Assembly (NCBI GenBank): GCA_902774365.1
Contig: CACYHX010000030.1
Coordinates: forward strand, 25,705-89,704
Length of the DNA stretch: 64,000 nt
Reading direction: 5' to 3'
Source of the DNA: an uncultured Bacteroidia bacterium
GTDB taxonomy: Bacteria; Bacteroidota; Bacteroidia; Bacteroidales; F082
Shown piece after piece: positions 34,953 through 54,891 of the stretch. The position numbers were made by a program, and so were the translations under genes. Position 1 is the stretch's first letter. Each line of letters begins with the position of its first letter. The notes beneath the pieces were generated by a model that had not been told where the DNA came from, did not search any database, and saw only the letters and a program-made list of their open reading frames with translations.

Positions 34953-35071
34953 GGTGAAGATGATAGACAATGGTAGGAAATGCAGGCTTGTAATAGTTTG
35001 ATTTTTAATAACTTGATGTTATGGATAAATAGACAAAGCCTTTTCTTCATCTTGTATTGCATTTTATTGTG

Positions 35072-35079
35072 TATTTTTG
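35072..35079 (+). promoter_or_regulatory. -7 element of the CotH-like gene
   Basis: TATTTTTG, 23 nt before the ATG at 35103. It excludes the in-frame ATG at 34980. Confidence 0.55.
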
Positions 35080-35102
35080 CACTGATAATCAAGCTAGTTA
35101 TT

Positions 35103-39197: not shown

Positions 39198-40901
39198 TTA
39201 GAACAACTCCCCGTTTCTCAGCCGTTCATTAACCACCCAGCGGGCGTCTTCTTCGAGGACGGTCTCAAAGGTCTTGCCGTTCTCTTGGGCTTTGCCTTCC
39301 AAGAACTTGATGCTTTCGGGGTTGTTGCGCCATTGTTCCATCAGTTTGTTTACCTCGAATTCGATAATGGAAGCCGTGTCCACTTGGATTTCTTGGCGCA
39401 TCAAGGGGCGACCGTGCAGTACGTTTTCGGCTTCTTCATCCAGGATATCATCGAAGAGGCGACCGGTCCTTGAGGCTTGGATGCGCAAGGCGGTGCACCA
39501 TTCCTTGTCGTTGGCGATGGCATTGGCTTGTTGCACCAGCTGAATGGCTTGAGTGTTGCGTATGGTCGGCATGGCTTCACCACCGAGACCAGGAATGAGT
39601 TCGGGGTCGTCTCTCAGCGTCTTGACGGCGTAATGCCTCAGGCTGTCGTCGCGGTGCTCGGAATAGCGCCATTGGTAATGGTATTTCCAGAAAAGGCTGT
39701 CGTGGCTCAAGCTGTCCATCACCCACGGAATCTGTGCGTCGAAGAGGCTGTCGGTGACGCAAAGACGCAGCAGGGCGTCTTCTACGAAGTCGTACGACGA
39801 CAGACCCCATTGATAGCCAGAAGAATACCAAACGACAAAGTCAGAATTGAGGATGGAACGCAGGCGGTTGATGTCGCCAATGGGATGCTTCTCTTTCTCG
39901 AAGCCCAGGAAGGCGGACTTGTTGTAAAACCAGATTTCGACATAGTCCATGAATTGCTTCCAAGGCATATAGGTCTCCAAGTCCCAAACGAAGGAGTCGC
40001 CGACAAAGAGCACCTTGGGCTTGCGGCAGCCTTCGCCACAGTCGACACTGATGTCGGCGCGGTATTTCGGCGAGTCGTTGCCGATGGGGAAGATGAGGTT
40101 GAGGGTCTGTTCGTCGTTTTCGGGATATATTGTGTCGAGTTTGACCAACCGGTCGACATGGATGTCAGGGATGCCAAAGTCGTTGAGGCTGTTCATGTAG
40201 CTAAACAAGCTGTCGTAGCCATAGACGGCGGAGTAACGCCAGTGGGTGTCGCGCTTGGGAAACAGCAGGAACGAGGCGGTGTCTTTCATGCTTTGGTACC
40301 ATTTCGTCATTTCCACATGGGGAAAGTCGATGGCGGTCATCAGCGAGTCGTAATAGGCTGCCGTGTGGATGGCATCGGTGGGAGCAGGTTGGTGATAAGG
40401 TAGGTATTCGGGATATACTTCCGCCTTGTTGGGCGCCATAAAACACAGGAACTCAACGCCGTAATCTTTCAGCACATACCTGAGCTTATTCATCATCCTG
40501 ACGTTTTTCCTTGCCCATTCACGGGCGCGGTCGTATGTCTTGTATTGGTTGATGGGTTCGATGCCGTAGTAGTCTCGGAAGGCTTCGGCATAAAAAAGCC
40601 AGCCGTCCTTGCCAGGGGTGATGAAATGGCAGGTGGTCTGGTTGAAAAGGCTATAGTTGACTTGGTTGTAGAGTTTGATATGCCATTCACGGAAGCCGAA
40701 GTTCTCGCGGCTGTACTGTTCCGCTTGGCTTTGGTATTGGCCCGAGGCGAAGTTCTTTAGCGTCAGTTCGGGTTTCTCTGTGGCAAAAGTGACGCCCGCC
40801 AATGGATTTAGCTTGAAAGGCCGCCATTTTTCCTGCACGAAGACGAGTACGAAACCTATCATCGTCAGTATGCATAATATGGTGCAAACGCGGCTTTTCA
40901 T
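39198..40901 (-). CDS. AlgX/AlgJ-like SGNH-type acyltransferase (A6, canonical DxHW)
   Basis: A 567-residue periplasmic protein with an N-terminal membrane anchor or signal (CTILCILTMIGFVLVFVQ). AlgX/AlgJ proteins pass or attach acetyl groups to exported alginate. Here the conserved FGFREWHIKLYNQ, DGWLFYAEAF and VYPEYLPYH blocks lead to KRDTHWRYSAVYGYDSL, which keeps the Asp-x-His pair, and to VLFVGDSFVW with the Ser. It is the only one of the six copies with the full DTHW motif. Two copies of the helical end motif follow (IANDKEWCTALRIQA; NNPESIKFLEGKAQ...EEDARWVV). Its start overlaps the A5 stop by 4 nt (ATGA). Last gene of the locus. Confidence 0.85.
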   Translation of the reverse strand: MKSRVCTILCILTMIGFVLVFVQEKWRPFKLNPLAGVTFATEKPELTLKNFASGQYQSQAEQYSRENFGFREWHIKLYNQVNYSLFNQTTCHFITPGKDGWLFYAEAFRDYYGIEPINQYKTYDRAREWARKNVRMMNKLRYVLKDYGVEFLCFMAPNKAEVYPEYLPYHQPAPTDAIHTAAYYDSLMTAIDFPHVEMTKWYQSMKDTASFLLFPKRDTHWRYSAVYGYDSLFSYMNSLNDFGIPDIHVDRLVKLDTIYPENDEQTLNLIFPIGNDSPKYRADISVDCGEGCRKPKVLFVGDSFVWDLETYMPWKQFMDYVEIWFYNKSAFLGFEKEKHPIGDINRLRSILNSDFVVWYSSGYQWGLSSYDFVEDALLRLCVTDSLFDAQIPWVMDSLSHDSLFWKYHYQWRYSEHRDDSLRHYAVKTLRDDPELIPGLGGEAMPTIRNTQAIQLVQQANAIANDKEWCTALRIQASRTGRLFDDILDEEAENVLHGRPLMRQEIQVDTASIIEFEVNKLMEQWRNNPESIKFLEGKAQENGKTFETVLEEDARWVVNERLRNGELF

Positions 40902-42247
40902 CTTACAAATCCTTTAGGCTCAATATTGTTGCGATAGGTGTATGCGGCGACATCCCAAAGCGACTGCTCTAAACTGACGCCTTTCTCTTTGGCGTTTTGC
41001 TCGACGCTCTCCAACCATTCAGGCGTTTCCTTGATGTGTTGGATGATGTTTTCGATTTTCTCATTCCTGAAAACAACATAAAGATTATCGGCGGCATCAT
41101 ATTGTTCGGGTTGCTTGTAGCGGAAAACGTCGTCGTAGGCACTCAGATAACGCTCAAAGAAACCGTAAGGCCAAAGGTGGTTGGTGGCTTCGGTGCAAAC
41201 CAAAAGAATGAATTCTTGGTTCTCGATTTCCTGCTTATAGTTGATGGACTCCACGTTTTGGATAGGAGTGCGCTTGGGATAGATGGTCTTGTTGTAAAAC
41301 CAGAAGTCGCCAGGAGAGAACAGGTTTTGATGCAAGGCCACTTTCCAATCATAGATGGCCCACCAATAAGAGTCGGAGATGGACAGCACTTTGGGTTTGT
41401 AGCCTTCGGTGAAGCTAAACTTGGGTTGGTCGATGGTGTTGTGCTTGAAAGGAAACATGAGGTTCATCATGCGCCACAGTTCATCGTCTTGTTCCATCAG
41501 ATAGGTGGAGTCGAATGCGGTGATGACGGCACGGGCTTGGGTTTTGTGCGTCTTGCTTTCCATGTAGTTCACCAATGAATCGATGGCCAAAGAAGCACCG
41601 TAAACAGTCCAATGGGAACTTAGGTTGCAATAAAGCGGGTGCGGTTCGTTATCTTTCCGCTCGCAAAACCAGCGGTTGAAGTCGATCATTTCAACGCCCT
41701 GTTCGGCAAAGGCTTTCAAATAGCCTTGATAATTGTTGGTCTCACGACGCTTGGCCATGTATTCGTCGGGGATGAGTTCGGGAAAATAGGAGGCCTTGCC
41801 CACGACAAAAACGGGCAGCAGCGTGATGCCCTTGGTACCGAGCATGTCTTGTATGAGCTTGAGTTGCTGCGTGTTTTTCTCGATGGTTTCCTCGCCCATA
41901 TAGGTCTCGCCAATATAGCTGATGACATACGACTTGTCAAAGAAATTGCTTCCGTCTTTTCCTTTTACGAGATGGGTGACCGGGATTTTTCCGAAAGTGG
42001 AATACAACATTTGGTTGTTGACTCTTATCATTGAATTGCGGAACCCCGTTTGCTCCGTGCACCAGTTCATCAAGGAGTCTTGGGCTGTTTCCTGATAAAG
42101 TGTCGTGGCATTGACAATGGGCTTCTTTGCTGGAACGTAGGCACCGTCCAAAGGCTTCTCATCCACCAAATGGAAACAGGTCTGCATCATCGGCAGGAAA
42201 AGTACCGCGAGCAGCACGAGGAACCATATTTTCTTGAACGTTTTCAT
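40898..42247 (-). CDS. AlgX/AlgJ-like protein (A5, divergent active site)
   Basis: 449 residues with an N-terminal membrane segment (IWFLVLLAVLFLPMMQTCF). It has TGFRNSMIRVNNQMLYS in place of FGFREP, and SSHWTVYGASLAIDSL where A6 has DTHW, so the Asp is replaced by Ser. The nucleophile block is VLSISDSYWWAIYDW. One helical motif ends the protein (IKETPEWLESVEQNAKEKG, then VAAYTYRNN). It is the most divergent of the set and may have lost catalysis or serve a binding role. The start overlaps the M3 stop by one base (TGATG), implying coupled translation. Confidence 0.8.
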   Translation of the reverse strand: MKTFKKIWFLVLLAVLFLPMMQTCFHLVDEKPLDGAYVPAKKPIVNATTLYQETAQDSLMNWCTEQTGFRNSMIRVNNQMLYSTFGKIPVTHLVKGKDGSNFFDKSYVISYIGETYMGEETIEKNTQQLKLIQDMLGTKGITLLPVFVVGKASYFPELIPDEYMAKRRETNNYQGYLKAFAEQGVEMIDFNRWFCERKDNEPHPLYCNLSSHWTVYGASLAIDSLVNYMESKTHKTQARAVITAFDSTYLMEQDDELWRMMNLMFPFKHNTIDQPKFSFTEGYKPKVLSISDSYWWAIYDWKVALHQNLFSPGDFWFYNKTIYPKRTPIQNVESINYKQEIENQEFILLVCTEATNHLWPYGFFERYLSAYDDVFRYKQPEQYDAADNLYVVFRNEKIENIIQHIKETPEWLESVEQNAKEKGVSLEQSLWDVAAYTYRNNIEPKGFVR

Positions 42248-43674
42248 CAGAACCTAAAGTAAATGAAGGGGTTGAAACTGCCTTTGAGGATGAACGAAGC
42301 CGAGAGGATGAGTAGCACAATCATCAGCAAGCCGACAAAAATGTATTGTTTCGCGTTGTAGAACTTGCGGTCGAAGAAGAAGTCCAAGGCTTTGTCGCCC
42401 GCTTTGGTGAGTGCGAAGAAGGAGAAGAGAACTGCAACGATGAGGGTGAACACAAACTGGCTGTTGACGAAGAGTGCAGGTGTGCTGCCGTTGGCTCCGA
42501 ACATGGCGCCTACATATTGCACGGCATAGCCAATGGTGTCGGCACGAAACATCACCCAGCCAATCATCACAATGACGAAGGTGATAAGTATCCTAGGTAT
42601 CTTGCCGATTTTCTTGCTCGTCTTCAACCAAAACATCTTGTCAATGACGATGAAGAGACCATGGAAGGCACCCCAGGCCACGAAGGTCCAGGCGGCACCG
42701 TGCCACAAACCTGAGAGGAAGAACACAATCCAGAGGTTGAGGTAAGTGCGTCTCTTGCCTTTACGGTTGCCACCGAGCGGAATATAGAGATAGTCCATCA
42801 TCCAGCTGCCGAGGGTGATGTGCCAGCGTTTCCAGAACTCCGACACGCTTTGGCTGATATAAGGGTTGTTGAAGTTTTCGGGGAACTTGAAGCCTATCAT
42901 GCGCCCGATACCGATAGCCATGTCGCTGTAGCCCGAGAAGTCGAAATAGATTTGCATGGTGTAGGCAAGGATGCCCAACCAAGCAGTTGAGAGGCCGATT
43001 TCTGTGGTGGGCAAGGCAAACACTTGGTCGACATATTCTGCCAAGATATTGGCAATCAGCATCTTCTTTGATAAGCCGATAACGAAGCGGTAGAAACCTA
43101 AAATGCGATTGTCGGCGGTTTCGTTGGCACTTCGGTCGGTGATTTGTTCGGCAATCTCGTTGTAGCGCACAATGGGGCCGGCAATGAGTTGCGGGAAAAG
43201 CATGATAAACAAGGCATAATCAGCGATGCTCTTTAGCGGGGCCGAGGTCTTGCGATAGACATCGATGCTGTAGCTCATCTTCTGGAAGGTGAAAAACGAG
43301 ATGCCGATGGGTAGCACCACCTTGGTCCAACGGACGGGAGGCGAGCCAAAGGCACTCAAGATAGCATTGAAATTGTCAATAAAGAAGTTAGCGTATTTGA
43401 AATAGGCCAACAGCCCGATGTTGAGAATCACGGAAAAGACGAGGAAAAGCTTTCGTCGTTTGGCGTCAGTACTTTTGTCGATTTGTCGCACCAAGAAAAA
43501 GTCGATGGTGATTGACAATAGTAAGACTATCAAGAATTTAGGAGACCCAAAGCCATAGAATAGCAGACTTGCAAGCAGAGCAACGGCATTTTTATAACGC
43601 TTATCGACGAGGAAATACACCCCGAGGAAAATGGGCAAAAACCAAAAAAGGAATATGCTGCTGCTGAAAACCAT
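42247..43674 (-). CDS. MBOAT O-acyltransferase, AlgI-like (M3)
   Basis: A 475-residue polytopic inner-membrane protein of the MBOAT family, which imports acyl groups across the membrane for glycan O-acylation. It begins MVFSSSIFLFWFLPIFLGVY and has LPIGISFFTFQKMSYSIDVY, FPQLIAGPIVRYNE, YFDFSGYSDMAIGIGRM and FWKRWHITLGSWMMDYLYIPLG-type loops. The MBOAT histidine region is SGLWHGAAWTFVAWGAFHGL, with both His present. It ends in PFIYFRF, as do M1 and M2. It has its own -7 element at 43694-43701, so it starts a new transcription unit with A5 and A6. Confidence 0.93.
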   Translation of the reverse strand: MVFSSSIFLFWFLPIFLGVYFLVDKRYKNAVALLASLLFYGFGSPKFLIVLLLSITIDFFLVRQIDKSTDAKRRKLFLVFSVILNIGLLAYFKYANFFIDNFNAILSAFGSPPVRWTKVVLPIGISFFTFQKMSYSIDVYRKTSAPLKSIADYALFIMLFPQLIAGPIVRYNEIAEQITDRSANETADNRILGFYRFVIGLSKKMLIANILAEYVDQVFALPTTEIGLSTAWLGILAYTMQIYFDFSGYSDMAIGIGRMIGFKFPENFNNPYISQSVSEFWKRWHITLGSWMMDYLYIPLGGNRKGKRRTYLNLWIVFFLSGLWHGAAWTFVAWGAFHGLFIVIDKMFWLKTSKKIGKIPRILITFVIVMIGWVMFRADTIGYAVQYVGAMFGANGSTPALFVNSQFVFTLIVAVLFSFFALTKAGDKALDFFFDRKFYNAKQYIFVGLLMIVLLILSASFILKGSFNPFIYFRF

Positions 43675-43693
43675 GACCCTTGTTTTGAGTGTG

Positions 43694-43701
43694 CAAAAAT
43701 A
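43694..43701 (-). promoter_or_regulatory. -7 element in front of the M3-A5-A6 module
   Basis: TATTTTTG on the minus strand, 19 nt before the M3 ATG, in the 33-nt gap after A4. Confidence 0.55.
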
Positions 43702-43707
43702 CGATTT

Positions 43708-45489
43708 TTATGGATTATACCCTTGTATTGTGTCGGTTTTTGGAAGTTTTATCTTGCCTTCGTGGATTTGCTGGTCCACTGTATAGGTGGCATGGTTGCG
43801 TACGGATTCGTCAACGGTGATGCCTAATCTTTCGGCATCAGCTTTCGCAACATCGAACCATTCCTTGTAGTTTCTGATTTGCTGTTCAGTTTGTTGGATG
43901 AGGATTTCGCGGTATTCTTTGGCTCCGACTTTGGTGCCACGCATCAGTGGACGCCCGAAGAGCACGTTTTCTGTCTCTCGGTCGATGGCCTGTTGCAGAG
44001 AAATGCCTTCGGTCACCATGAAGCCGGAAACGCTATTCATCCATTCAGGGTCGCATTTGATTTGTCGGCGAATGTCGCGTTTCTTCCAGTAGTCATCGTT
44101 GAGAAGCCTGGGATTGCGAGCTGTTGGTATGCCTTCGCCGGCGATTTCGGGGAAATAGGCTTCGGGATTTTTCCGCAACAAGTTCAATGTGTAGCCTTCC
44201 AATTTGATGCGGTAGAGCGAGTCGGGATAGTTCCATGCGATGGTATTGTGGGCGTTTTGGTCGTGGAAGAGGCTGTCGATGAGTTGCTCCTGCCGTTGGC
44301 GGAAACGCTCCTCGCCGATGCAGAGTTGTATGATGGCATCTTCGGCAAAGCCTTCGGTGGCGCGGTACATCTGGCTGCTGCTTGAGAACCAAACAATGTA
44401 GTCGGCATCAAGGAGGTAATCGAGGCGGTCGAGCGTGTTGACACTGTCGATGATTTTGTCGACATCCTGATAGGCGACGCGGTTGTAATACCAGAATTGG
44501 AAGTCGGAAAACACCTCTTGGGGTGGAATATAAGCCATTGTTCTCAGCAAGAACGAGTTACCAATGAACAGGGCTGAGGGCTTGACCGTCGTGGAATCGG
44601 AAGTCAGCCAGTAGTCGCGTTCCTTGTAGTCGAATTTCGGGTCGAATTTGATAGGTCGCATCAGGTTGAGTTCGCCTTCAAGGTCTCGGTTCATTGGTTC
44701 GCCGATGCGGCAGGTGTTGTGCCATTCGTTGCCATATTCGATGCGAGGCATTCGGATGTCGCGTTGTGTCTCCATGAAACGCAGCAACGAGTCGGTGGCG
44801 TACACGCACGAAAAGTTCCAGTGGTCGCCCGTGGGCGGAAACAGGTAGAACGAGCAGGTGTCTTTCATCCGCAGGAAATATTCGTTCATGTCGAAGCAGG
44901 GCATGACCGTTTCGGAAAAGCGTTTGATGAAGTATTCCCTCGCGTTGAGCGAGGTGGTGTCGTGCTCGCGTCGAGGCAGGTATTCTGGATAGATGATGCT
45001 CTTGCTCGGCGCGATGAAGGTCAATAAGGTGACATCATAGTCAGCCAGGATGCCTCTCACCTTGTTCATCAGGCGCACTTCCTGCTCATAGCCTTTACGG
45101 GCGGCCTCGGCATCGGGAAACCAGTGGTACATCTCGGTGCCGTAATAATCTTCGATGTTGTGGCCATAGTAGAGCCATCTTTCCTTGCCCGAATAGATGT
45201 AGCTCACATATTCCTTCCCGAAAAAGTCCCAGCAATATTGGTGATAGAGCCTGATGATAGGCTCGCGGAAGCCATAGTTGTTCGTGATGTATTTTTCAAG
45301 GTGCTCCTGAAAATAGCCGTTCTTGTACCATTCCCAACGGAATTTCGGTTTGTTGGGTTTCATGAAATACCCCATCAGTTCCTTAGTCTTGAAGGGCTTG
45401 AAGTGTTCTTGTATCATGAACGAGAACAAAAAGACCATCAAGAGGCCGAAGAGAATGCCGTAGAATATGTTGCCGTTGCCCTTTTTCAT
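43708..45489 (-). CDS. AlgX/AlgJ-like protein (A4)
   Basis: 593 residues. Membrane anchor IFYGILFGLLMVFLFSFMI, then YGFREPIIRLYHQYCWDFFG, ERWLYYGHNIEDYYGTE and IIYPEYLPRREHD. The His block is PTGDHWNFSCVYATDSL: Asp is adjacent to His instead of two residues before it. The Ser block is ALFIGNSFLLRTMAY. Two helical end motifs follow (IKCDPEWMNSVSGFM...ETENVLFGRP; IRNYKEWFDVAKADAERLG). The start overlaps the M2 stop by one base (TGATG), so M2 and A4 are a coupled pair. Confidence 0.83.
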   Translation of the reverse strand: MKKGNGNIFYGILFGLLMVFLFSFMIQEHFKPFKTKELMGYFMKPNKPKFRWEWYKNGYFQEHLEKYITNNYGFREPIIRLYHQYCWDFFGKEYVSYIYSGKERWLYYGHNIEDYYGTEMYHWFPDAEAARKGYEQEVRLMNKVRGILADYDVTLLTFIAPSKSIIYPEYLPRREHDTTSLNAREYFIKRFSETVMPCFDMNEYFLRMKDTCSFYLFPPTGDHWNFSCVYATDSLLRFMETQRDIRMPRIEYGNEWHNTCRIGEPMNRDLEGELNLMRPIKFDPKFDYKERDYWLTSDSTTVKPSALFIGNSFLLRTMAYIPPQEVFSDFQFWYYNRVAYQDVDKIIDSVNTLDRLDYLLDADYIVWFSSSSQMYRATEGFAEDAIIQLCIGEERFRQRQEQLIDSLFHDQNAHNTIAWNYPDSLYRIKLEGYTLNLLRKNPEAYFPEIAGEGIPTARNPRLLNDDYWKKRDIRRQIKCDPEWMNSVSGFMVTEGISLQQAIDRETENVLFGRPLMRGTKVGAKEYREILIQQTEQQIRNYKEWFDVAKADAERLGITVDESVRNHATYTVDQQIHEGKIKLPKTDTIQGYNP

Positions 45490-46958
45490 CAGAACCTAAA
45501 GTAAATGAACGGACTAAAACCACTGGCATTCAAGGCACCGAGGCAGAAAACGAAGGCAAAAATGCTGACCACGAAGGCGATGATATGCTGCCGCTTGTTG
45601 TATTCGGTGAAGTAGACCTTATCCTGCACCTTGAGGCCGAACTTCGAGAGGGTGAAGAACGAGAAGAAGGCCGCCACGAGCATGGTGACATAAAGGTGCG
45701 GATTGTCGCTGAAGTGGAATGGCGCAAAGTCGAAGGCGAAGAGGCGCTTGATGAAGAGCCAAGATAGGTCGATGCGCTCGATGCGGAAGAAGCAACGCGT
45801 CAACACGATGATGAGGAAAGTGAAAAACACACTCGGAATCCTGCCCAACCGCTCGTTGAACTTTTTCAAAAACAACTTGTCGGCGCAGATGAAAATGCCT
45901 TGCAAGGCACCATAAACCACGAAGTTCCACGCAGCACCGTGCCACAAACCGCTGACTAAGAAGCAGAACCACAGGTTGAAGTATTTTCTCGCTTCTGTTT
46001 TCACGCGGCTACCGCCCAAGGGAAAATACAGATAGTTCTTGATGAACACGCTGAACGTTTGGTGCCAACGACGCCAAAACTCTGAGATGGTGGTGGAGAC
46101 GTACGGGTTATCAAAGTTCTCGGGGAACTTGAAGCCCATCATGCGGCCCAAACCGATGGCCATGTCACTGTAGCCCGCAAAGTCGAAGTAGATTTGGAAG
46201 GTGAAGGCGAAGATGGCAATCCAAGCCGTGGTCGAGTCGATGGTGGCGATTTTTGTAGCAATGTCAGCAAGTTGCTCGGCAGTCAGCACATCGTAGTTTG
46301 AGGGGCCTAAAACCTTATCGACTTGGAAACCAATGACGTCGGCAATCAACACTTTCTTGGCCAAACCAATGACAAAGCGGTAGAAACCTTGCAAGCGGTC
46401 TGTATAAAGCGATTCGCGGTTGCGGATTTGGTCGGCAATATCACAGTAGCGCACGATGGGTCCTGCAATCAGTTGCGGGAACATGACAATGTAGAGCATG
46501 TAGTCGCTCAGCCGTTTCATCGGAGCATTGACGCCACGGTAGGTGTCCAAGGTGTAAGTCACGCTTTGGAACGAGAAGAACGAGATGCCGATGGGCAGTA
46601 GGATCTTGGTCCATTGCAACGGCCGGCCTCCAAACCAACCTAATACCGAGTTGATGTTTTGCATGGTGAAGTTGCCGTACTTGAAATAGAACAACAACCC
46701 GATGCTGATGGCTATGCTGATGCCGCAGAGTAGTTTCTTCAACCCTGGCTTCTCCGTCTTGTTCATCCATCGCACCAAGTAGAAGTTGGCAATGACCGAC
46801 ACGATGAGGTGGATGATGAACTCGGGCGCGCCGTAGGCGTAAAAGACGAGTGAGGCCAACAGCAGGAAGTAGTTGCGGACTTTCTTCGGCAGGATGAAAT
46901 ACACCAGGAAGAAAATCGGCATGAAGTAGAGTAGGAATACGTTGCTGCTGAATACCAT
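45489..46958 (-). CDS. MBOAT O-acyltransferase, AlgI-like (M2)
   Basis: A 489-residue polytopic MBOAT protein. Hallmarks are LLPIGISFFSFQSVTYTLDT, FPQLIAGPIVRYCDIADQ, FDFAGYSDMAIGLGRMMG and FWRRWHQTFSVFIKNYLYFP. The histidine region is SGLWHGAAWNFVVYGALQGI: the first His is kept, but the second position, His in M1 and M3, is Gln. The C-terminus is GFSPFIYFRF. The -7 element TACTTTTG is at 46983-46990, downstream of a complex repeat that separates it from A3. Confidence 0.92.
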   Translation of the reverse strand: MVFSSNVFLLYFMPIFFLVYFILPKKVRNYFLLLASLVFYAYGAPEFIIHLIVSVIANFYLVRWMNKTEKPGLKKLLCGISIAISIGLLFYFKYGNFTMQNINSVLGWFGGRPLQWTKILLPIGISFFSFQSVTYTLDTYRGVNAPMKRLSDYMLYIVMFPQLIAGPIVRYCDIADQIRNRESLYTDRLQGFYRFVIGLAKKVLIADVIGFQVDKVLGPSNYDVLTAEQLADIATKIATIDSTTAWIAIFAFTFQIYFDFAGYSDMAIGLGRMMGFKFPENFDNPYVSTTISEFWRRWHQTFSVFIKNYLYFPLGGSRVKTEARKYFNLWFCFLVSGLWHGAAWNFVVYGALQGIFICADKLFLKKFNERLGRIPSVFFTFLIIVLTRCFFRIERIDLSWLFIKRLFAFDFAPFHFSDNPHLYVTMLVAAFFSFFTLSKFGLKVQDKVYFTEYNKRQHIIAFVVSIFAFVFCLGALNASGFSPFIYFRF

Positions 46959-46982
46959 GTTCTATCGTCTGTTATTGGTTTG

Positions 46983-46990
46983 CAAAAGTA
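46983..46990 (-). promoter_or_regulatory. -7 element in front of the M2-A4 module
   Basis: TACTTTTG on the minus strand, 24 nt before the M2 ATG. Confidence 0.55.
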
Positions 46991-47025
46991 GTAATTAATT
47001 TAATTTAATGCTCATAGATACTCTC

Positions 47026-47100
47026 GGAGTTTGTCTGCATGTCATACCGACCGACGAAGGAGGGAGTGTATCTATACAGACAAACTCCTCGGTATGACAT
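47026..47100. repeat. Repeat element with two interleaved 12-bp inverted pairs
   Basis: GGAGTTTGTCTG (47026) pairs with CAGACAAACTCC (47077), and ATGTCATACCGA (47039) pairs with TCGGTATGACAT (47089). The order is A-B-A'-B', the arrangement of a pseudoknot. It shares ATGTCATACCGA and GGGAGTGTATCTAT with the element at 13328. It ends 5 nt before the A3 stop codon region. Confidence 0.88.
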
Positions 47101-47105
47101 AGGCA

Positions 47106-48833
47106 TCAGTCTGGCGGTATTGGGATTTCGGCATCGGGGTCGTCGATGAGGCGGCAGTGGTCGAGGCCGTATTTTTCGCGGGTGATCCAAATGGCGGCAT
47201 CTTCAATGGCTTTATCAATCGGTTTGTGGCGTTTTTCAGCATCTTTGCGAATGTGTTCCAGCAGTTCCGCATTGCCAGGAATCCTTTCGATGCGCCCCCT
47301 GACTTCCTCTTGGCATTGCCGCGCAAACTGAATCTCGGCAGTTTGGTCCTTATAGAGCGGTTTGTCCGCCTTGATGCGGTCCACCTCGGCATGGAGCATC
47401 TGATTCATGTTGGCACTGCGCAAAAATGCCTGTGCCTCTAGGGCGGCCATCCATACGCTGTCTTTTCGGATGTCCTTGATGACCTTGGCGTAAGGTATTT
47501 CATTGTTTTTGGAGGTCAGTGTTTCGGCATTTAATTCGGGGATGATTTCCGGGTGGTTGTGCAGGATGGCGATGGCCTCTTTTCGGATGATGCTGTCTGT
47601 GGAGACGCGATTAATCGCGTCTCTACAAATCGTGTCGGCAATGCGGTCAATGTATGCCTGCCGGATGCTGTCGTCAACACCAAGGGTGAGGATGACGGAA
47701 TTGGCAAAGCCATTGGTGCCTTTGTTCAGCTGGTTGCCTGTGGTGAACCACACGATATAGTCGAAATCCAACAGCTTTTCGAGTAGGTTGAGGTCGACGA
47801 CATTGCCGCTCGGTGTCAACGGGTCGCCAGTGTAGGCGGTGGAGAAGTAGTACCAAAACTCCACCTCGTCAAACACTTCCTTCATTGGCAACCGGGTGGC
47901 GAAGCCCCACATGAACGAGTTGCCAATAAACAGCACTCTGGGTTTGACACTGTTTGTCCTATGCTCTACCGTGACCTCTGCTGTAGGGCTATAGCCTTGG
48001 CGTTTCCTGATGGGTAGCGAAAGGTTAAGCAGCCGCTCCAGGTCGTTGTCGGTGCCGTGGTTGTCGCTTTCGTGCAACGCACCGTATCTCAGCTTGGGCA
48101 GCTCGATGCCTTTCAATTCGCCCATGAAGCGAAACAGCGAGTCGGCGGCATACACGGCGGGGAAGACCCAATGGGCGCCCGTTTGCGGAATCACGGGATA
48201 GTCGACGGTGTCTTTCATCTGCTTGAACCAGCTGGTCATGTCGATGCAAGGGAATCCGTTTTCCGCGAACCTGTGCAAAAAAGTGGCACAGGCGTTAATG
48301 GTAGTGGTATCGTGTTCACCATCAGGGAGATACTCGGGGTAGACAAAACTTTTTTCTGGGGCAATGAAGGCCAACAATTCCACGTCGTTTTCCTTGAGGA
48401 TGTCGCGAGCGTGGCATAGGTATTTCACCTCACGTTCGAAATTACGTCGGGCCTCTTCGACCGAGGGCTGCCAGTTCAGTAGCTCGGTGCCATAGTAGTC
48501 GCTGACGCTCTCGGGGGTGTAAAGCCAGCCTTGTTTGCCTGCCATCACGTCGTGGGCGTAGGTTTTCTTGTAACAGCTCCAGAGGTATTGGTTGTAAAGT
48601 CGGATAATAGGCTCCCGAAAGCCGAAATGTTCGCCCACATAAGCCTCTTCTTGTTTGGCGTATGCGCCCGAACGATAGGATTCAAGCTCAAATTCCGGCT
48701 TCTCCGTTTCGATGGTCACGCCGTTCAAAGGCTTCAAGGGGATGAGTTGGAAGCGGCCTTGAAGAAGGGGCATGAAAAGCAATATCATCAGTATGATGAA
48801 CAGAACTTTATCATATATTGGCTTCTTACTCAT
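47106..48833 (-). CDS. AlgX/AlgJ-like protein (A3) with an in-frame palindrome
   Basis: 575 residues from the ATG at 48833 (MSKKPIYDKVLFII); an ATG 15 nt upstream is also possible. Membrane anchor, then FGFREPIIRLYNQYLWSC, KQGWLYTPESVSDYYG and FVYPEYLPDGEHD. The His block is QTGAHWVFPAVYAADSL, with Gly at the Asp position. The Ser block is VLFIGNSFMWGFATR. The 28-nt palindrome at 47599-47626 adds CRDAINRVS between ADTI and TDSIIRKEA. Two degenerate helical motifs end the protein (IRKDSVWMAALEAQA; KPIDKAIEDAAIWITREK). Composite repeat copy c and 143 nt separate it from M1, so it may be transcribed separately. Confidence 0.83.
   Translation of the reverse strand: MSKKPIYDKVLFIILMILLFMPLLQGRFQLIPLKPLNGVTIETEKPEFELESYRSGAYAKQEEAYVGEHFGFREPIIRLYNQYLWSCYKKTYAHDVMAGKQGWLYTPESVSDYYGTELLNWQPSVEEARRNFEREVKYLCHARDILKENDVELLAFIAPEKSFVYPEYLPDGEHDTTTINACATFLHRFAENGFPCIDMTSWFKQMKDTVDYPVIPQTGAHWVFPAVYAADSLFRFMGELKGIELPKLRYGALHESDNHGTDNDLERLLNLSLPIRKRQGYSPTAEVTVEHRTNSVKPRVLFIGNSFMWGFATRLPMKEVFDEVEFWYYFSTAYTGDPLTPSGNVVDLNLLEKLLDFDYIVWFTTGNQLNKGTNGFANSVILTLGVDDSIRQAYIDRIADTICRDAINRVSTDSIIRKEAIAILHNHPEIIPELNAETLTSKNNEIPYAKVIKDIRKDSVWMAALEAQAFLRSANMNQMLHAEVDRIKADKPLYKDQTAEIQFARQCQEEVRGRIERIPGNAELLEHIRKDAEKRHKPIDKAIEDAAIWITREKYGLDHCRLIDDPDAEIPIPPD
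47599..47626. repeat. 28-nt palindrome, in frame in A3
   Basis: Differs from the copies at 18576 and 54431 by single bases in the outer arms (GTGGAGACG on the left). Encodes CRDAINRVS. Confidence 0.95.
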
Positions 48834-48876
48834 GCTTTTTCTGCGCAAACACTATTTGACCGTTAAACACCAAACT

Positions 48877-48961
48877 GTCATTGCGGGCTTGACCCGCAAT
48901 CTCCTGAATGTAAGGGTAATCCTTCTAGCGCAGGAGATGGCGGATCCTTGTCCGCCATGAC
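48877..48961. repeat. Composite two-hairpin repeat (copy c)
   Basis: 85 bp from GTCAT to ATGAC with the ATTGCGGG and ATGGCGGA hairpins and a middle segment bounded by ATCTCCTG/CAGGAGAT. It lies between A3 and M1. Confidence 0.9.
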
Positions 48962-48991
48962 GGTTAAAATGAGAAATCTTGCTCATTTATT

Positions 48992-50449
48992 TTAGAACCT
49001 AAAGTAAATGAACGGGCTGAAGCTCGTAGCATTGAGCGCGGCCACACAGAAGATGAACACGATGGCGGCCACAATCCACACCCAGATGTGCTGGCGGTCG
49101 CTATAGTCGGTGTAGTAGACCTTTTGCTCCACTTTCTTGCCCCATCCCGTCAGGGTGAAGAAGGAGAAGAGGGCTGCCACCACCATAATGGTGTAAACCT
49201 GGGCGTTGCCGTCGAAAGCGAAACCGCTAAAGTCGAAGGCGAACATGCGCGTGACGAAGGTCCAGGCCAAGTTGAGGTTCTCGATGCGGAAGAACACCCA
49301 GATGACGCAAATCGTGATGAAAGTAAGGATGACGGATGGCACCGTGCCGATTTTCTTCATCACCTTGCCGAGGAAGAGTTTGTCGAGGCAGATAAAGAGG
49401 CCGTGCAAGGCACCCCAAACAACGAAGTTCCATGATGCGCCGTGCCACAAGCCGCTAAGCAGGAAGCATAGCCAGAGGTTGAGGTACATGCGTCCCGTGC
49501 CCTTGCGGTTGCCGCCCAGCGGGATGTAGAGGTAGTTCATGATGAAGGCGCCAAGGGTCTTGTGCCAACGTCTCCAGAACTCGGTGATGCTGCGTGAGGT
49601 GTAGGGGTTGTCGAAGTTCTCGGGGAACTTGAAGCCCATGATACGTCCCAATCCGATGGCCATGTCGGAATAACCGGCGAAGTCGAAATAGATTTGGAAG
49701 GTGTAGGCCAAAGCCACAAGCCAGGCCGTGCCCGTGTCTAAAGTGGCGATGCGTGTCATGATGTCGCCCACCTGTGAGGGGTCGAGGGCGGCGGGCCCCA
49801 GCATCTTGTCGACACACAAGCCGATGACATCAGCGATGAGGATTTTTTTGGCCAAGCCGATGACGAAGCGGTAGAAACCCTGCAGGCGGTCGGCCATCGT
49901 CGACTCACGCGTGCGGATTTGGTCGGCGACGTCGCAGTAACGCACGATGGGACCTGCGATGAGCTGCGGGAACATGGTGATGTATAGCATGTAGTCGCTC
50001 AGCTTCTTCAACGGCTGGTTGACGCCACGGTAGGTGTCCAAGGTGTAGGTCACGCTCTGGAACGAGAAGAACGAGATGCCTATAGGCAGCATGATATGCT
50101 TCCAACTCAAAGGAGCATGCCCCGTGAGGCCAAGGATGGCGTTGAGGTTCTCCATGGTGAAGTTGCCGTATTTGTAGACAAACAGCAGTCCAAGAGGTAT
50201 GGCGATGGAGATACCGCAGAGCCATTTGCGCCCTCTGACGTTTTGGGTAGCACACATCCATTTGACCAACAGGAAGTTCAGGATGGTGGAAACGACCAGT
50301 TGTATGATGAACTCGGGCGCACCCCAGGCATAGAAGATGAGTGAGGCCAGCAAAAGCACATAGTTGCGGGTCTTCTTTGGCATGAGGAAATACACCAGGA
50401 AGAACGCTGGCATGAAATAGAGTAGGAATACGTTACTGCTGAATACCAT
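48992..50449 (-). CDS. MBOAT O-acyltransferase, AlgI-like (M1)
   Basis: A 485-residue polytopic MBOAT protein very similar to M2: LPIGISFFSFQSVTYTLDTY, FPQLIAGPIVRYCDVADQ, YFDFAGYSDMAIGLGRIMG and FWRRWHKTLGAFIMNYLYIP. The histidine region SGLWHGASWNFVVWGALHGL has both His. The C-terminus is SFSPFIYFRF. It begins 18 nt after the A2 stop, within the same run as A1 and A2. Close similarity of M1 and M2 suggests duplication within the locus. Confidence 0.93.
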   Translation of the reverse strand: MVFSSNVFLLYFMPAFFLVYFLMPKKTRNYVLLLASLIFYAWGAPEFIIQLVVSTILNFLLVKWMCATQNVRGRKWLCGISIAIPLGLLFVYKYGNFTMENLNAILGLTGHAPLSWKHIMLPIGISFFSFQSVTYTLDTYRGVNQPLKKLSDYMLYITMFPQLIAGPIVRYCDVADQIRTRESTMADRLQGFYRFVIGLAKKILIADVIGLCVDKMLGPAALDPSQVGDIMTRIATLDTGTAWLVALAYTFQIYFDFAGYSDMAIGLGRIMGFKFPENFDNPYTSRSITEFWRRWHKTLGAFIMNYLYIPLGGNRKGTGRMYLNLWLCFLLSGLWHGASWNFVVWGALHGLFICLDKLFLGKVMKKIGTVPSVILTFITICVIWVFFRIENLNLAWTFVTRMFAFDFSGFAFDGNAQVYTIMVVAALFSFFTLTGWGKKVEQKVYYTDYSDRQHIWVWIVAAIVFIFCVAALNATSFSPFIYFRF

Positions 50450-50456
50450 TTTTTTT

Positions 50457-50489
50457 CAGTTTATAGTTTACAGTTTATAGTTTACAGTT
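50457..50489. repeat. Tandem 14-bp repeat at the A2 3' end
   Basis: CAGTTTATAGTTTA twice plus a partial third unit. It overlaps the last codons and stop of A2, which read TTVNYKL. Confidence 0.85.
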
Positions 50490-51703
50490 GTAGGGCTGTC
50501 ACAGTGTGGCAGCCGTACATATTGTTCAGTTTGTTGTTTTTGTATTAATTTGTTGAGCAGGCTTTGGCTGAAGCCGTTGCTCATTTTGTAGAGTGCCGTG
50601 GTGGAGTAAGAGAGCATGACGAAGTCGGCGTCGATGACCTCTTGAAGCACGTCGATGTCGCTGATTTTATGGGTTACGTTAAGGTCGTCGTCACCGAAAT
50701 AGACGGTGCTGAAGTAATACCAATAGGGGACGCTTTCAAACACGGCCCACACGGGCGTGTAGTTGAGGATGTTCCAATAGAACGAGTCACCAACGGTGAT
50801 AAGCTTCGGACGCCAGGCCGTGGTGTCGAAGTCATAAATGGCCGTAGCGAACATGTTGGGCGCTTTTTGTATGGGCCAAATGAGGTTCATCAGGCTTTCG
50901 AGGTCGGCATCGGGCTTGAGGGTGCGCTGCCAAGCGTTGCCAGCCTTGACATTGATCATGTTGGAGTCGCTCAGGTGTTCCATGTAGCGGATGAGGGTGT
51001 CGGCGCTGTGGATGGCGGCGAGGTTGCTCCAGTGTGTGCCCGTCTGCGGAAACAGCGGATAGCTTACCGTGTCTTTCATCTGCACGAACCACTCGCCCAG
51101 GTCGATATGGTTGATGCCCAGTTCCTTGAAGCGTGTCCTATAGAACTCGTATGCCGTGATGGTCTTTTTCTTGAGATAACCTGGGTTTTTGGGCATGTGC
51201 TCGCCGCAAACTAATTCCTTGCCTGGCAGCAGTGCCACGAAGAGGCGGGTGTGGTAAGGCTCAAGCAGCTGTTGTAGTCTGAGTAGTCTTTGCGCTTCAG
51301 CCTCTAATGTTTCAGCCATCTCCGTTGAGTCCTTGGCAAATTCATAGGTGAGGCTTTGGTAGTATTCTTCCATATTCCATGGCTCGAAGATCCAATTGTC
51401 TCGAGTGATGACGATGCGTTGGTCTTCGGCCACCTGAGAATAGCGGAACAAAGTCCACTCCGTCTGGTTGTAGAAGCGCGTCAGAGGCTCGCGGAAGCCA
51501 AAGTTTTGTTGCAAATAGGCCTCGGTGGAGTCCTGCAAGCCACCGTCGATGAAGTTGTGCCAAGTCAAGTCGGGTTTAGAGTTCGAATAGACCACGCCAT
51601 TCAGCTCCTTGAACTTGAAAAGCCCAGTCTGTTGTTGTATTGCGGAGGCAAACAGCAACAGGGCAGTCAAGGCGAACAATATGACTTGGGTGCGACTATT
51701 CAT
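50468..51703 (-). CDS. AlgX/AlgJ-like protein (A2), C-terminally truncated
   Basis: 411 residues. Membrane anchor (VILFALTALLLFASAIQQQ), then NFGFREPLTRFYNQTEWTLF and RDNWIFEPWNMEEYY. The His block is QTGTHWSNLAAIHSADTL (Gly at the Asp position), and the Ser block LITVGDSFYWNILNYTP. Its nearest relative is A1, but it ends about 85 residues earlier: after SQSLLNKLIQKQQTEQY the sequence becomes VRLPHCDSPTT from a 29-nt palindrome and VNYKL from a 14-bp tandem repeat. The helical end motif is therefore missing. The start overlaps the A1 stop by 8 nt. Confidence 0.82.
   Translation of the reverse strand: MNSRTQVILFALTALLLFASAIQQQTGLFKFKELNGVVYSNSKPDLTWHNFIDGGLQDSTEAYLQQNFGFREPLTRFYNQTEWTLFRYSQVAEDQRIVITRDNWIFEPWNMEEYYQSLTYEFAKDSTEMAETLEAEAQRLLRLQQLLEPYHTRLFVALLPGKELVCGEHMPKNPGYLKKKTITAYEFYRTRFKELGINHIDLGEWFVQMKDTVSYPLFPQTGTHWSNLAAIHSADTLIRYMEHLSDSNMINVKAGNAWQRTLKPDADLESLMNLIWPIQKAPNMFATAIYDFDTTAWRPKLITVGDSFYWNILNYTPVWAVFESVPYWYYFSTVYFGDDDLNVTHKISDIDVLQEVIDADFVMLSYSTTALYKMSNGFSQSLLNKLIQKQQTEQYVRLPHCDSPTTVNYKL
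50490..50518. repeat. 29-nt imperfect palindrome encoding the A2 C-terminus
   Basis: GTA-G-GGCTG-T-CAC around AGT pairs with GTG-G-CAGCC-G-TAC. On the minus strand it reads VRLPHCDSPT in frame with A2. Confidence 0.8.
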
Positions 51704-53102
51704 TGGTATGGCTCTTTTGTGTTATGATTTGTTCGGCTTTGCTCGACCGTTTGAGCGGAACGCTGTCGGTCAGGGCAGGGAAGCAGACATCCGGACGCTT
51801 GGTAATGAAATAGGAAGTCTCCATATTCAGCATAGAATCTACGGAAACGCCCATGTTTTCGGCTTTTTTGATGATACCGTCCATCCAGGGCGTGTCATGG
51901 CTGATGCGTTCCTTCATCTTCTGTTTCAAAGGCTCAATTTCTTCTTTGTCGTAACACCATTCCATCAGGAAGCGTTGCGCGAAGCCGTTGCTCATCTCAT
52001 ATTGCTGTGGCGTGCTATAGGCCAGCATGATGAAGTCGGCTCCCGTCACCTTTTCGAGCAGGTCGATGTCGGCTACATTCACCTCTGGGCCATCGAAATA
52101 GATGGTGCTGAAGTAATACCAATAAGGGACGCTGCCGAAGATTCTCTTGAATGGCGCGTGATTGAGGATGTTCCAATAGAACGAGTCGCCGATGGTGATG
52201 AGCCTGGGTTTCACGGCAGTGGGGTCGTCCACGATGGGGGTCTTGGCGTAATAGTTAGGCTCTCCTTTCAGAGGGCGCATGAGGTTCAGCCATTCTTCGA
52301 GGTCGTTGTCAGGCTCTTTGGTCTTGACGTATTTCTCGCCAATGGTGAAATTCAGTATGTTGACGTCGCCTAAGTCTTCCATGTAGCGGATGAGGCTGTC
52401 GGCGACATACATGGCGGCGAGGTTGCTCCAGTGCGTTCCCGTCTGCGGAAACAGGGGAAAGTCGACGGTGTCTTTCATCTGCAAGAACCATTCTCCCGCG
52501 TCGATGTAGTGGATGCCCAGCTCCTCGAAGCGTTGGTGAAGGAAGTCGTGGGCCGAGAACACCTTGTCGTGATGGTATCGCGTGTTGGCAGGGATGTGCT
52601 CGGGATAAATCAATTCTTTTCCAGGCTCCAGCAGCACAAAAAGGTGGACCCCCATGCTGTCGAGAATCTGTTGGGTTTGGGAAAGCATCAAGGCTTCTCT
52701 GCCAAGGATATTCGCCATCTGCAAGGAGTCTTGGGTGTATTTCCAGGAGCTGCCTTCGTAGTATTCCTGCACATAACTCGATTCGTAATACCATCCGTCG
52801 TCGCTGACGAAGACCCAGTTTCTTTCCTTGGCGAAGGTCAAGCCGTAGCAATCCCAGATGTACTGGTTGTAAAGGCGCGTCAATGGCTCCCGAAACCCAT
52901 AATGCTGTTGCAGATAGGCCTCGGCGCCGTCCTGAAAGCTGCAGTCAAGCCATTGCTGTGCCGTCAGTCGGGGCTTGGGCTGTTCCTCCATAGCACCATA
53001 AAGCTTCTTGAATTTGAAGAGGCCCGTGGCTTGCTGTATCGGGAAGAGAAACAAGACGACAGCGGTGAGTGAAAACAATATGACCTTGACGTTGGCTTTC
53101 AT
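51696..53102 (-). CDS. AlgX/AlgJ-like protein (A1), first gene of the locus
   Basis: 468 residues from the ATG at 53102. Membrane anchor (VILFSLTAVVLFLFPIQQ), HYGFREPLTRLYNQYIWDC, DDGWYYESSYVQEYYEG and LIYPEHIPANTRYHHD. The His block is QTGTHWSNLAAMYVADSL (Gly at the Asp position) and the Ser block LITIGDSFYWNILNHAP. One helical end motif is present (ISHDTPWMDGIIKKAENMG, METSYFITKRP). The -7 element TATTTTTG at 53122-53129 heads the locus and diverges from the U32 gene. Confidence 0.84.
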   Translation of the reverse strand: MKANVKVILFSLTAVVLFLFPIQQATGLFKFKKLYGAMEEQPKPRLTAQQWLDCSFQDGAEAYLQQHYGFREPLTRLYNQYIWDCYGLTFAKERNWVFVSDDGWYYESSYVQEYYEGSSWKYTQDSLQMANILGREALMLSQTQQILDSMGVHLFVLLEPGKELIYPEHIPANTRYHHDKVFSAHDFLHQRFEELGIHYIDAGEWFLQMKDTVDFPLFPQTGTHWSNLAAMYVADSLIRYMEDLGDVNILNFTIGEKYVKTKEPDNDLEEWLNLMRPLKGEPNYYAKTPIVDDPTAVKPRLITIGDSFYWNILNHAPFKRIFGSVPYWYYFSTIYFDGPEVNVADIDLLEKVTGADFIMLAYSTPQQYEMSNGFAQRFLMEWCYDKEEIEPLKQKMKERISHDTPWMDGIIKKAENMGVSVDSMLNMETSYFITKRPDVCFPALTDSVPLKRSSKAEQIITQKSHTNE

Positions 53103-53172: not shown

Positions 53173-54891
53173 ATGAATACGAAGAAGATAGAACTGCTCT
53201 CTCCCGCCAAGGATGCCGAGGTAGGCATGGCCGCCATCGACCATGGCGCCGACGCCGTCTATATCGGCGGACCCTCGTTTGGCGCCCGCGAGAAGGCCTC
53301 CAACAGCATCGCCGACATCGAACGCCTCTGCCGTCATGCCGCCCTCTACGACGCCAAGGTCTACGTCACCCTCAACACCTTATTATATACGGAAGAATTG
53401 GAGCGCGCCCGACAACTGGCCTACGACTGCTGGAACGCCGGTGTCGACGCCCTCATCGTGCAGGACATGCAGCTCCTCGACCTCGACCTGCCGCCCATTC
53501 CGCTCCATGCCAGCACGCAGTGCGACAACCTCACCGTAGATAAAGTGCAACAACTTGAAAGTCTGGGATTTAGTCAGGTCGTCCTCGGTCGCGAATTGAG
53601 CCTCAAGGAGATCCGTGAAATCAGGGAGAAGACCACCGTGCCGTTGGAGTTTTTCGTGCATGGTGCCCTTTGTGTCAGCCACAGCGGGCGGTGCTATCTG
53701 AGTCAGTTTATCGGCAACCGCAGCGCCAACCGTGGCGCTTGTGCCCAGCCCTGCCGTCTGCCCTACGACCTCCTCGACGCCGACGGCAACGTGCTGATTA
53801 AAAATAGGCATCTCCTCTGCCTGAAAGACCTCAACAACAGCGCGCATCTGGAAGAATTAATGGACGCCGGCATCACTAGTTTTAAAATCGAAGGACGCAT
53901 GAAAGAGGCTGATTATGTGAAGAATGTGACGGCGTTCTATCGGCAGAAACTAGATGCCATTTTTGAACGTCGGGCTGAATATGAAATGGCCTCGCGTGGT
54001 CATTGCCAATACACGTTTGAGGTCAACCCCGAGAAATCGTTCAACCGGGGTTTCACCGACTTCTTCATTAATGGGCGGCAGAAGGGCATCGACTCGCCTT
54101 TCACACCGAAATCCATGGGTGAATACATCGGCGAGGTGACCTGGTGCAACCCCTTGCGCATGGAACTCGCCACCGACAAGACCCTGCACAACGGCGACGG
54201 CCTCTGTTTCATGAATGAAAACAACGAATTAATTGGCATCCGTGCCGATGTGGTCAACGGCAAAACGGTGTCGTGCAACCGTCCCCACGGTGCCCATCGT
54301 GGCGCGAGAATCTACCGCAACTACGACCTCGAATGGCAAAAACAGGTAGAGGCCTCCACGGGCAACCGAAAGATCGACATTAATCTGACCTTAGCGGAGA
54401 TCGAAACCGGGTATGAAATGGTCGCCGTTTGTAGAGACGCGATTAATCGCGTCTCTGCCAGCGTCACCTGTGAAAAAATCACCGCCACCAACCCCGAAAA
54501 GGCCACTGAAAACATCCGAAAGAAAGCCCTTCAATGGGGCGACACGTCGTTCAACCCCATTAATCTTGAATTGCAATTCGCCGAGCCACGTCTCATCCCC
54601 GCCTCAGTCATCGGTGAGATGAAACGCCAACTGGTTGAAAAACTGATTAATGCATTAATTGAAAATCATCGTGAAAACCGCGAAATTCGCTGTACGGACA
54701 CATCGCAATTAATGACCTGCCACCATTGCATCCGTTATGCCAACGGTATGTGCAGCAAGGAAACCGGCCAAAAGGCCACCGATTTGTTCCTGCGTCCGGT
54801 AGGCTATCCCCCTCTGAGAGGGGGGCAGGGGGGAGTCACCTTCCGTCTCGTCTTTGATTGTCGCCATTGTTTGATGTATGTTCAAAATTAA
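53173..54891 (+). CDS. Peptidase U32 family protein, RlhA-like (23S rRNA hydroxylation)
   Basis: 572 residues. The RlhA branch of U32 is needed for 5-hydroxycytidine in 23S rRNA; the long form with an extra C-terminal domain fits. The N-terminus is IELLSPAKDAEVGMAAIDHG. The Fe-S-type cysteines are in FFVHGALCVSHSGRCYLSQ and SANRGACAQPCRLPYD, with FKIEGRMKEADYV following. The C-terminus has further cysteines (CHHCIRYANGMC, DCRHCLMYV). Two repeats are inserted in frame: the 28-nt palindrome (54431-54458, giving CRDAINRVS) and a C-rich/G-rich hairpin (54808-54834, giving PPLRGGQGG). The start sits 4 nt after its -7 element. Confidence 0.87.
   Translation: MNTKKIELLSPAKDAEVGMAAIDHGADAVYIGGPSFGAREKASNSIADIERLCRHAALYDAKVYVTLNTLLYTEELERARQLAYDCWNAGVDALIVQDMQLLDLDLPPIPLHASTQCDNLTVDKVQQLESLGFSQVVLGRELSLKEIREIREKTTVPLEFFVHGALCVSHSGRCYLSQFIGNRSANRGACAQPCRLPYDLLDADGNVLIKNRHLLCLKDLNNSAHLEELMDAGITSFKIEGRMKEADYVKNVTAFYRQKLDAIFERRAEYEMASRGHCQYTFEVNPEKSFNRGFTDFFINGRQKGIDSPFTPKSMGEYIGEVTWCNPLRMELATDKTLHNGDGLCFMNENNELIGIRADVVNGKTVSCNRPHGAHRGARIYRNYDLEWQKQVEASTGNRKIDINLTLAEIETGYEMVAVCRDAINRVSASVTCEKITATNPEKATENIRKKALQWGDTSFNPINLELQFAEPRLIPASVIGEMKRQLVEKLINALIENHRENREIRCTDTSQLMTCHHCIRYANGMCSKETGQKATDLFLRPVGYPPLRGGQGGVTFRLVFDCRHCLMYVQN
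54431..54458. repeat. 28-nt palindrome, in frame in the RlhA-like gene
   Basis: GTAGAGACGCGATT plus its complement with a single change (CTCTGC end). Encodes CRDAINRVS. Confidence 0.95.
54808..54834. repeat. CCCCCTCT hairpin repeat, in frame in the RlhA-like gene
   Basis: CCCCCTCT/AGAGGGGG followed by a second G-run; encodes PPLRGGQGG. A related unit, TCCCCTC-TAC-GAGGGGA with a trailing CTAGGGAG, is at 55149-55173. Confidence 0.7.

Follow-up and report, generated by a model that had tools for sequence, protein, structure and literature searches.

We analysed a 64,000-nucleotide stretch of contig CACYHX010000030.1 (positions 25,705 to 89,704; hereafter the window) from an uncultured gut bacterium of the class Bacteroidia (family F082), in which nine minus-strand genes at window positions 39198-53102 encode three membrane-bound O-acyltransferases (MBOAT; M1 to M3) and six AlgX-like proteins of the SGNH class (A1 to A6). 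Judging by these sequences, the locus very probably acylates (for example, acetylates) a sugar polymer of the cell surface. Our favoured reading, which we hold to be reasonably probable, is that the nine genes form an expanded and modular system of the MBOAT-SGNH kind that O-acylates a glycan of the periplasm or surface, and that a GH16-like protein encoded beside them belongs to it. The grounds for this reading are the parts themselves, the MBOAT motifs, a recurring gene order with characteristic followers, a common module of about 41 residues, and the recurrence of that module and of gene trios in other Bacteroidia. An initial annotation, made from this DNA alone, had already proposed an expanded O-acyltransferase locus of nine consecutive genes, and our results support it: all nine open reading frames (ORFs) are present, and the Pfam search that it suggested gives ALGX above cut-off for 6/6 A proteins and MBOAT above cut-off for 3/3 M proteins. 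The genome (2.8 Mb in 79 contigs, 82.6% complete) has all six of its ALGX matches and three of its five MBOAT matches in this locus.

To place the locus among its relatives, we relied on a genus-level set of stretches. ALGX matches occur in 76 of 90 genomes of the genus (this one included), with one to eight each; elsewhere in the order, 19 of 59 genomes have one to three. The genus set comprises the window and 46 stretches of 45 genomes chosen from the 76 ALGX-bearing genomes, among the matches listed; many of these stretches end at 20 kb or at contig ends, and ORFs of at least 200 residues were considered. Twenty-two matches to the A-protein hidden Markov model (HMM) at or below 250 bits were set aside as GH16-like. 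M and A proteins were sorted into types (M22, a19 and so on), which are distance cut-offs and no formal classification.

The three MBOATs are M1 (48992-50449, type M22), M2 (45489-46958, type M21) and M3 (42247-43674, type M6). The motifs WHG and [RK]WH, which have a catalytic role in MBOAT proteins, are kept in 111/111 genus M proteins longer than 440 residues, as is FIYFxF. M1, M2 and M3 all end in PFIYFRF, as the initial annotation had recorded, and so do 109 of the 114 M genes of the genus and 37 of the 48 from the outgroup; among the remaining five genus genes, two are one letter off and three have a different end. PatA auto-acetylates the Tyr of its C-terminal hexapeptide and PatB takes acetyl from an acetyl-Tyr peptide (PMC12148441). 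By its sequence, the FIYFRF end of M1 to M3 is the predicted acyl-tyrosine carrier motif general to MBOAT-SGNH systems. Because such an ending is general, and common across genus and outgroup M genes, it is uninformative on duplication, of which it had been read as a trace.

The genes are tightly packed. A1 (51696-53102) is followed by A2 (50468-51703), A3 (47106-48833) lies between M1 and M2, A4 (43708-45489) follows M2, and A5 (40898-42247) and A6 (39198-40901) follow M3; if A1 began at 53237, the start of the longer ORF, it would run into the divergent U32 peptidase gene. The stop-start overlaps proposed earlier are real for A1/A2, M2/A4, M3/A5 and A5/A6, and the intervening gaps measure 18 bp (A2-M1), 158 bp (M1-A3), 147 bp (A3-M2) and 33 bp (A4-M3). 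The joints between modules had been described as marked by repeats or promoter elements: a TAnnTTTG sequence, which we take to be a -7-type box, does stand before A1 and M2, and the A2/M1 joint contains a short tandem repeat of 7/14 bp (50453-50489), but no exact box precedes A3. Both long gaps (48834-48991 and 46959-47105) also contain palindrome-like sequence, recognised by eye, that could represent terminators or recombination sites.

The order of these genes recurs across the genus. Written as types, the window reads a9 a9 M22 a19 M21 a18 M6 a33 a17, and the survey of related genomes suggested by the initial annotation returned the identical nine-gene order in a near species (L005; loci outside the window carry L numbers) and variants elsewhere. 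Three loci (L002-L004) have a9 M22 a19 M21 a7 M19 a7 a16 M6 a33 a17, in other stretches cassettes are missing or exchanged, and the arrangement differs widely in a few (L040, L042-L046). An A gene comes next after 100 of the 114 genus M genes, and 89 of those 100 gaps are at most 20 bp or are overlaps. Which A gene follows is associated with the M type: M6 is followed by a33, the type of A5, in 15/15 cases and M19 by a7 in 15/18, and M21 is followed by a7 in 19/33 and by a18 in 4/33. The mutual information between M type and next A type is 1.08, against a maximum of 0.40 in 2000 shuffles that ignore shared ancestry. This pattern also redraws the modules. The initial annotation had separated A1-A2-M1 from A3; in the genus, the A3 type (a19) is the commonest gene after the M1 type (M22), in 18 of 32 cases, and among the M-A pairs compared by distance correlation, M1 and A3 score highest (0.82, 18 loci). 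As general evidence of pairing we set such mirror-tree correlations aside, since they are high only for M1-A3.

Part of the array appears to have grown by duplication. M1 and M2 are 68% identical, in keeping with the earlier statement that they are very similar, and A1 and A2, at 51% identity, probably arose by duplication too; M3 is only 47-50% identical to M1 and M2. Two trees were built, the first leaving out M proteins of 350 residues or fewer, and the second, a quick tree of 95 M proteins, leaving out genus M proteins below 440 residues and keeping at most six per genus type. In the quick tree, the M1 and M2 types fall into a single clade (support 98 in the Shimodaira-Hasegawa-like approximate likelihood ratio test) that also holds L067, which groups with the M2 type (support 95), and M3 falls outside a 64-row set containing most other Bacteroidia M proteins (support 95). 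Because M1 and M2 share a clade and M3 branches more deeply, the array looks like a partly duplicated one in which M3 with A5 is an older or separately acquired cassette.

The GH16-like gene (37033-39006, plus strand) was overlooked by the initial annotation. It is convergent with A6 and encodes a protein with a hydrophobic N-terminal membrane anchor and the sequence EIDIE, which fits the GH16 catalytic motif ExDx(x)E. EIDIE is kept in 22/22 genus GH16-like proteins, and 11 of 12 class relatives have SEID(I/F)E, the other having SEINMK; several relatives look like lipoproteins by eye. Between its anchor and its GH16-like part, the window protein carries one copy (37495-37617) of a module that it shares with the A proteins.

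This module, with the consensus PEW......KA...G...E..L..DA..V, is located close to the C-terminal end in most A proteins. Besides the GH16-like protein, it is present in five of the six window A proteins: once in A1 (51798-51920) and A5 (40928-41050), and twice in A3 (47364-47486 and 47175-47294), A4 (43954-44076 and 43771-43893) and A6 (39411-39533 and 39225-39347). Across the genus stretches, its carriers are 197/219 A proteins, 22/22 GH16-like proteins, 0/114 M proteins and 0/202 other ORFs of at least 200 residues. The module HMM, which was trained on its own targets, gives 390 domain matches in 1512 real proteins and none in reversed or shuffled sequences at E < 0.01. In a cross-test with copy boundaries taken from the joint model, an HMM built from A-side copies alone recovers 22/22 GH16-like proteins, and one built from GH16-like copies alone recovers 145 of the 244 A-side carriers along with two others. 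A search of 40 genomes with query P0010 likewise returned short matches, at the position of the module, to ORFs with ALGX matches. In this genome, all nine module matches (E ≤ 0.01) fall within the locus, and in 8/8 genus genomes searched, all 53 matches fall on one contig per genome, the contig of the M/A locus. When the carriers were scanned, no family of Pfam or NCBIfam matched the module above cut-off; we take the sub-cut-off matches that touch it, such as GP17 on A5 (14.1 against 25 bits), to be chance. In the open-licence literature we found no description of the nine-gene order or array, or of the module.

Beyond the genus, the module reaches E ≤ 1e-6 in 54 of 295 genomes of the class (this one included). 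The 30 class loci listed yielded 32 carriers: 15 A proteins, four GH16-like proteins (one being that of the window) and 13 others, some of these last being cut. Among ten of these 13 that were scanned, three match PMT_2 (two above cut-off, one below) and one is a NAGPA phosphodiester glycosidase; the rest have weak matches or none, one match-less protein being SGNH-like by eye. In 18 wider class loci, which were chosen for carrying the module and therefore bias its rates, and neighbour orders less so, carriers were 13/13 A proteins, 11/12 GH16-like proteins, 0/11 M proteins and 9/219 other ORFs. These nine include two PMT_2 proteins (GT-C), one CotH protein (L174) and two lipoproteins. The lipoproteins (L174:6809-7240 and L175:7897-8313; 143 and 138 residues, assigned by eye) consist mostly of two module copies each and have no Pfam family above cut-off; one of them directly precedes M and A genes. 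In five of the 18 loci (L176, L179, L181, L187 and L188; the GH16-like ORF of L187 is truncated) the genes run in one direction as GH16-M-A or GH16-M-A-A, and Candidatus Colimorpha merdihippi has the order M-A-GH16 (L068). Among the 19 A-class matches of loci L067-L086, 12 carry the module, one of the 12 being the GH16-like protein of L068. Small GT2 genes lie near the L174 and L186 loci. A CotH-VTC cluster was considered for the class loci and discarded: none of ten genes scanned is CotH or VTC, and they match MnmG/GidA, ABC, SpoIIE, GT2, PMT_2 or CoA transferase families or nothing.

Several observations weigh against a single O-acylation system that includes the GH16-like protein. No synthase, polymerase or exporter was identified among the flanking ORFs scanned, so that the earlier statement to this effect holds for them, and a search for a glycan synthase by co-occurrence gave no signal, GT2 (PF13641) matches being found in 109/109 genomes and 14/14 controls. 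The window GH16-like protein scores 19.4 bits for Pfam GH16, below the cut-off of 22, and phmmer with this protein found no solved relative at E ≤ 1; a relative (L179:5935-7890) passes with 28.1 bits, and those at L147, L157, L170 and L186 are below the cut-off or without a match. Seven of the 12 GH16-like genes in the class loci stand outside any trio, and a module copy was not detected in A2 or in 22/219 genus A proteins. Despite their invariable adjacency, M3 and A5 types have a distance correlation of only 0.36 (10 loci), lower than the values for M3 against M1 (0.95) or against the A4 type (0.75), from 6 loci each. In 44 of the 47 stretches, many of which are cut, there are more A than M proteins, and a strict one-to-one model therefore fails. 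Finally, A6 alone among the window A proteins has the full Asp-His-Ser set, A1 to A5 having no Asp of the DxH motif.

We suggest, tentatively and as a possibility at most, that the module is a new docking element, a two-helix plug-in loosely comparable to dockerin and cohesin. It would assemble a periplasmic glycan-finishing complex from exchangeable parts, namely AlgX-like acyltransferases loaded by MBOATs, a GH16-like glycanase or transglycosylase, GT-C sugar transferases and CotH-type enzymes, and from lipoprotein anchors made of the motif alone; in this genus, multiplication of the acylation half would have produced a combinatorial array and, with it, an acylation pattern particular to each species. 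That the module is instead a structural add-on of Bacteroidota envelope proteins with no docking role, and the GH16-like protein a chance neighbour, seems doubtful to us. Its occurrence on GT-C, CotH and NAGPA-type proteins and the GH16-like genes outside trios are what such an account would predict; it sits poorly with the confinement of all matches to the M/A-locus contig in the eight genus genomes, with the recurrence of trios in other families, and with lipoproteins of little but two module copies, one of them encoded directly before M and A genes.

A further alternative, close to one offered by the initial annotation, is that the extra A proteins are mostly non-catalytic, binding or presenting the glycan, passing it from enzyme to enzyme or serving as decoys, and that A6 alone transfers acyl. 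AlgJ and AlgX have a D-x-H and Ser triad with a Tyr in the oxyanion position, and the two share a fold and have distinct roles; mutation of the AlgJ Asp abolished alginate acetylation in vivo (PMC4148444). At the corresponding positions, A6 has DTHW and GDSF, A1 and A2 have GTHW and GDSF, A3 has GAHW and GNSF, A4 has GDHW and GNSF, and A5 has SSHW and SDSY, so that Ser and His, like the conserved Tyr, are present in all six. In an alignment of 219 genus A proteins, the DxH Asp is found in just 26, 25 of which are of the A6 type, and Ser is replaced by Gly in 8 (with Ser in 210 and a gap in one); these facts, with the AlgJ precedent, speak for inactive partners. However, His and Trp are invariant (219/219) and Tyr is conserved in 217, and the near-constancy of Ser and Tyr in Asp-less types would be odd for dead enzymes. 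Outside the genus, moreover, 17 of 18 rows of L067-L086, mostly single M-A pairs with one ALGX-like gene beside M and nearly all from Bacteroidota metagenome-assembled genomes (one row is labelled Proteobacteria), also have no DxH Asp. In other phyla DxH is found in 21 of 23 among the matches listed; 'Bacteroidota' and 'other phyla' denote here index ranges of named loci that were not checked singly, and the figures come from the rows listed. Every genus A protein (219/219) also has an Asp 10-11 positions downstream of the His, which accompanies the Asp-less state outside the genus and might help; we rejected it as a relocated triad Asp, because A6-type proteins have both and because a residue so far along would, by reasoning, be away from the His. 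We think it unlikely that the extra A proteins are mostly non-catalytic and A6 acts alone, and read the Asp-less A proteins as a Bacteroidota variant that may be catalytic. The textbook aspartate is missing from 193/219 genus A proteins and from most of those in the examined single pairs of other Bacteroidota; if active, they run without it.

Two side observations concern this family. The eight proteins with Gly at the Ser position are all of type a7 and are candidate non-catalytic subunits. An MBOAT also has a large AlgX-like neighbour, of some 1130 residues, in two further families of the order (L059:5496-8888 and L060:3890-7273); these AlgX-like proteins have NCHW where DxHW is expected and are possible fusions.

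Since MBOAT-SGNH pairs O-acetylate peptidoglycan in Gram-negative bacteria (PMC12148441), the locus might be thought to do likewise, in the manner of PatA/PatB; this is very improbable, because the same genome has a separate Pat-like cluster and several M-A sets would be excessive for one position of N-acetylmuramic acid. That cluster (L141:2879-8514, minus strand, on the same contig outside the window) comprises an MBOAT gene (621 residues), two GDSL-lipase genes and a LysM/SLT gene, looks like a candidate for Pat-like peptidoglycan O-acetylation, and fits a dedicated peptidoglycan locus better than the nine-gene locus does. We also know of no GH16 enzyme that acts on peptidoglycan. The remaining MBOAT gene of the genome (L142) adjoins a gene for a 495-residue protein with no Pfam match.

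For acylation of a periplasmic or surface glycan, the following mechanism may be proposed. Each MBOAT would draw on acyl-CoA in the cytoplasm for an acyl group (probably acetyl) and pass it to the Tyr of its own C-terminal FIYFRF; the A protein encoded next to it would receive the acyl group on its Ser and hand it on to a hydroxyl group of a sugar. An array of M-A cassettes that differ in their A proteins could then serve several acceptor positions or linkages, much as the initial annotation had proposed for different positions or different glycans. The GH16-like protein may trim or re-ligate the same glycan, and acyl groups may gate its cut sites; acyl-gated cutting has a precedent in succinoglycan, the unsuccinylated form of which ExoK and ExsH were unable to cut (PMC4916376). 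The module would hold the A proteins and the GH16-like protein together, or on a common ligand; for complex assembly, AlgX with AlgK is a precedent (PMC9734138). On this proposal, the module links the acyltransferases with the GH16-like protein and with further enzymes of envelope glycans in Bacteroidia. It would be a sequence handle on an envelope-glycan machine that has no name, and it predicts partners among proteins that now match no family.

The surroundings of the locus complete the description. On the A1 side, the U32 peptidase gene (53173-54891, plus strand) is a conserved divergent neighbour that marks the chromosomal site and lies outside the system; a homologue occurs in 35 of the 47 stretches, and a GH16-like gene in 22. 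Beyond it, a giant plus-strand ORF (55073-64000, at least 2976 residues) with Cleaved_Adhesin, DUF2436, MAM and fn3 matches runs off the end of the window, and the ORFs listed on the minus strand across from it (55394-62953) are probably shadows. On the other side, a CotH-domain protein with a type IX secretion tail (34980-36929) adjoins the GH16-like gene.

Among known systems, PatA/PatB resembles the locus in having an MBOAT with a C-terminal hexapeptide of the FIYxxF type and a periplasmic SGNH partner. It differs in being one pair only, and the Pat-like cluster of this genome lies elsewhere (L141). PatB belongs to another SGNH branch than the AlgX-like proteins, and we know of no GH16 partner of PatA/PatB. 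The alginate system is similar in pairing an AlgI-type MBOAT with circularly permuted SGNH proteins of the AlgX/AlgJ type (Pfam ALGX), more than one per system, and in including a polymer-degrading enzyme, AlgL, to which the GH16-like neighbour may be compared. In contrast to alginate, none of the flanking ORFs scanned, to which the search for alginate synthesis and export genes was confined, was seen to encode alginate synthase, AlgK or AlgE, three M and six A proteins stand against AlgI, AlgJ, AlgX and AlgF, five of the six A proteins have no DxH Asp, and the module of about 41 residues occupies the C-terminal place where AlgX has a carbohydrate-binding module. For the succinoglycan system of Sinorhizobium, the gene order is unrelated and ExoH and ExoZ are not MBOAT-SGNH pairs. 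The likeness there is the coupling of glycan acylation to the acyl-dependent endoglycanases ExoK and ExsH (PMC4916376). Single M-A pairs of other Bacteroidota (such as L070, L072, L076 and L080) share a related M protein and an adjacent A protein, and differ from the multi-cassette array in consisting of one pair. MBOAT-SGNH acylation is understood for single pairs, and an array of typed cassettes makes the specificity of partners and of positions testable by swapping.

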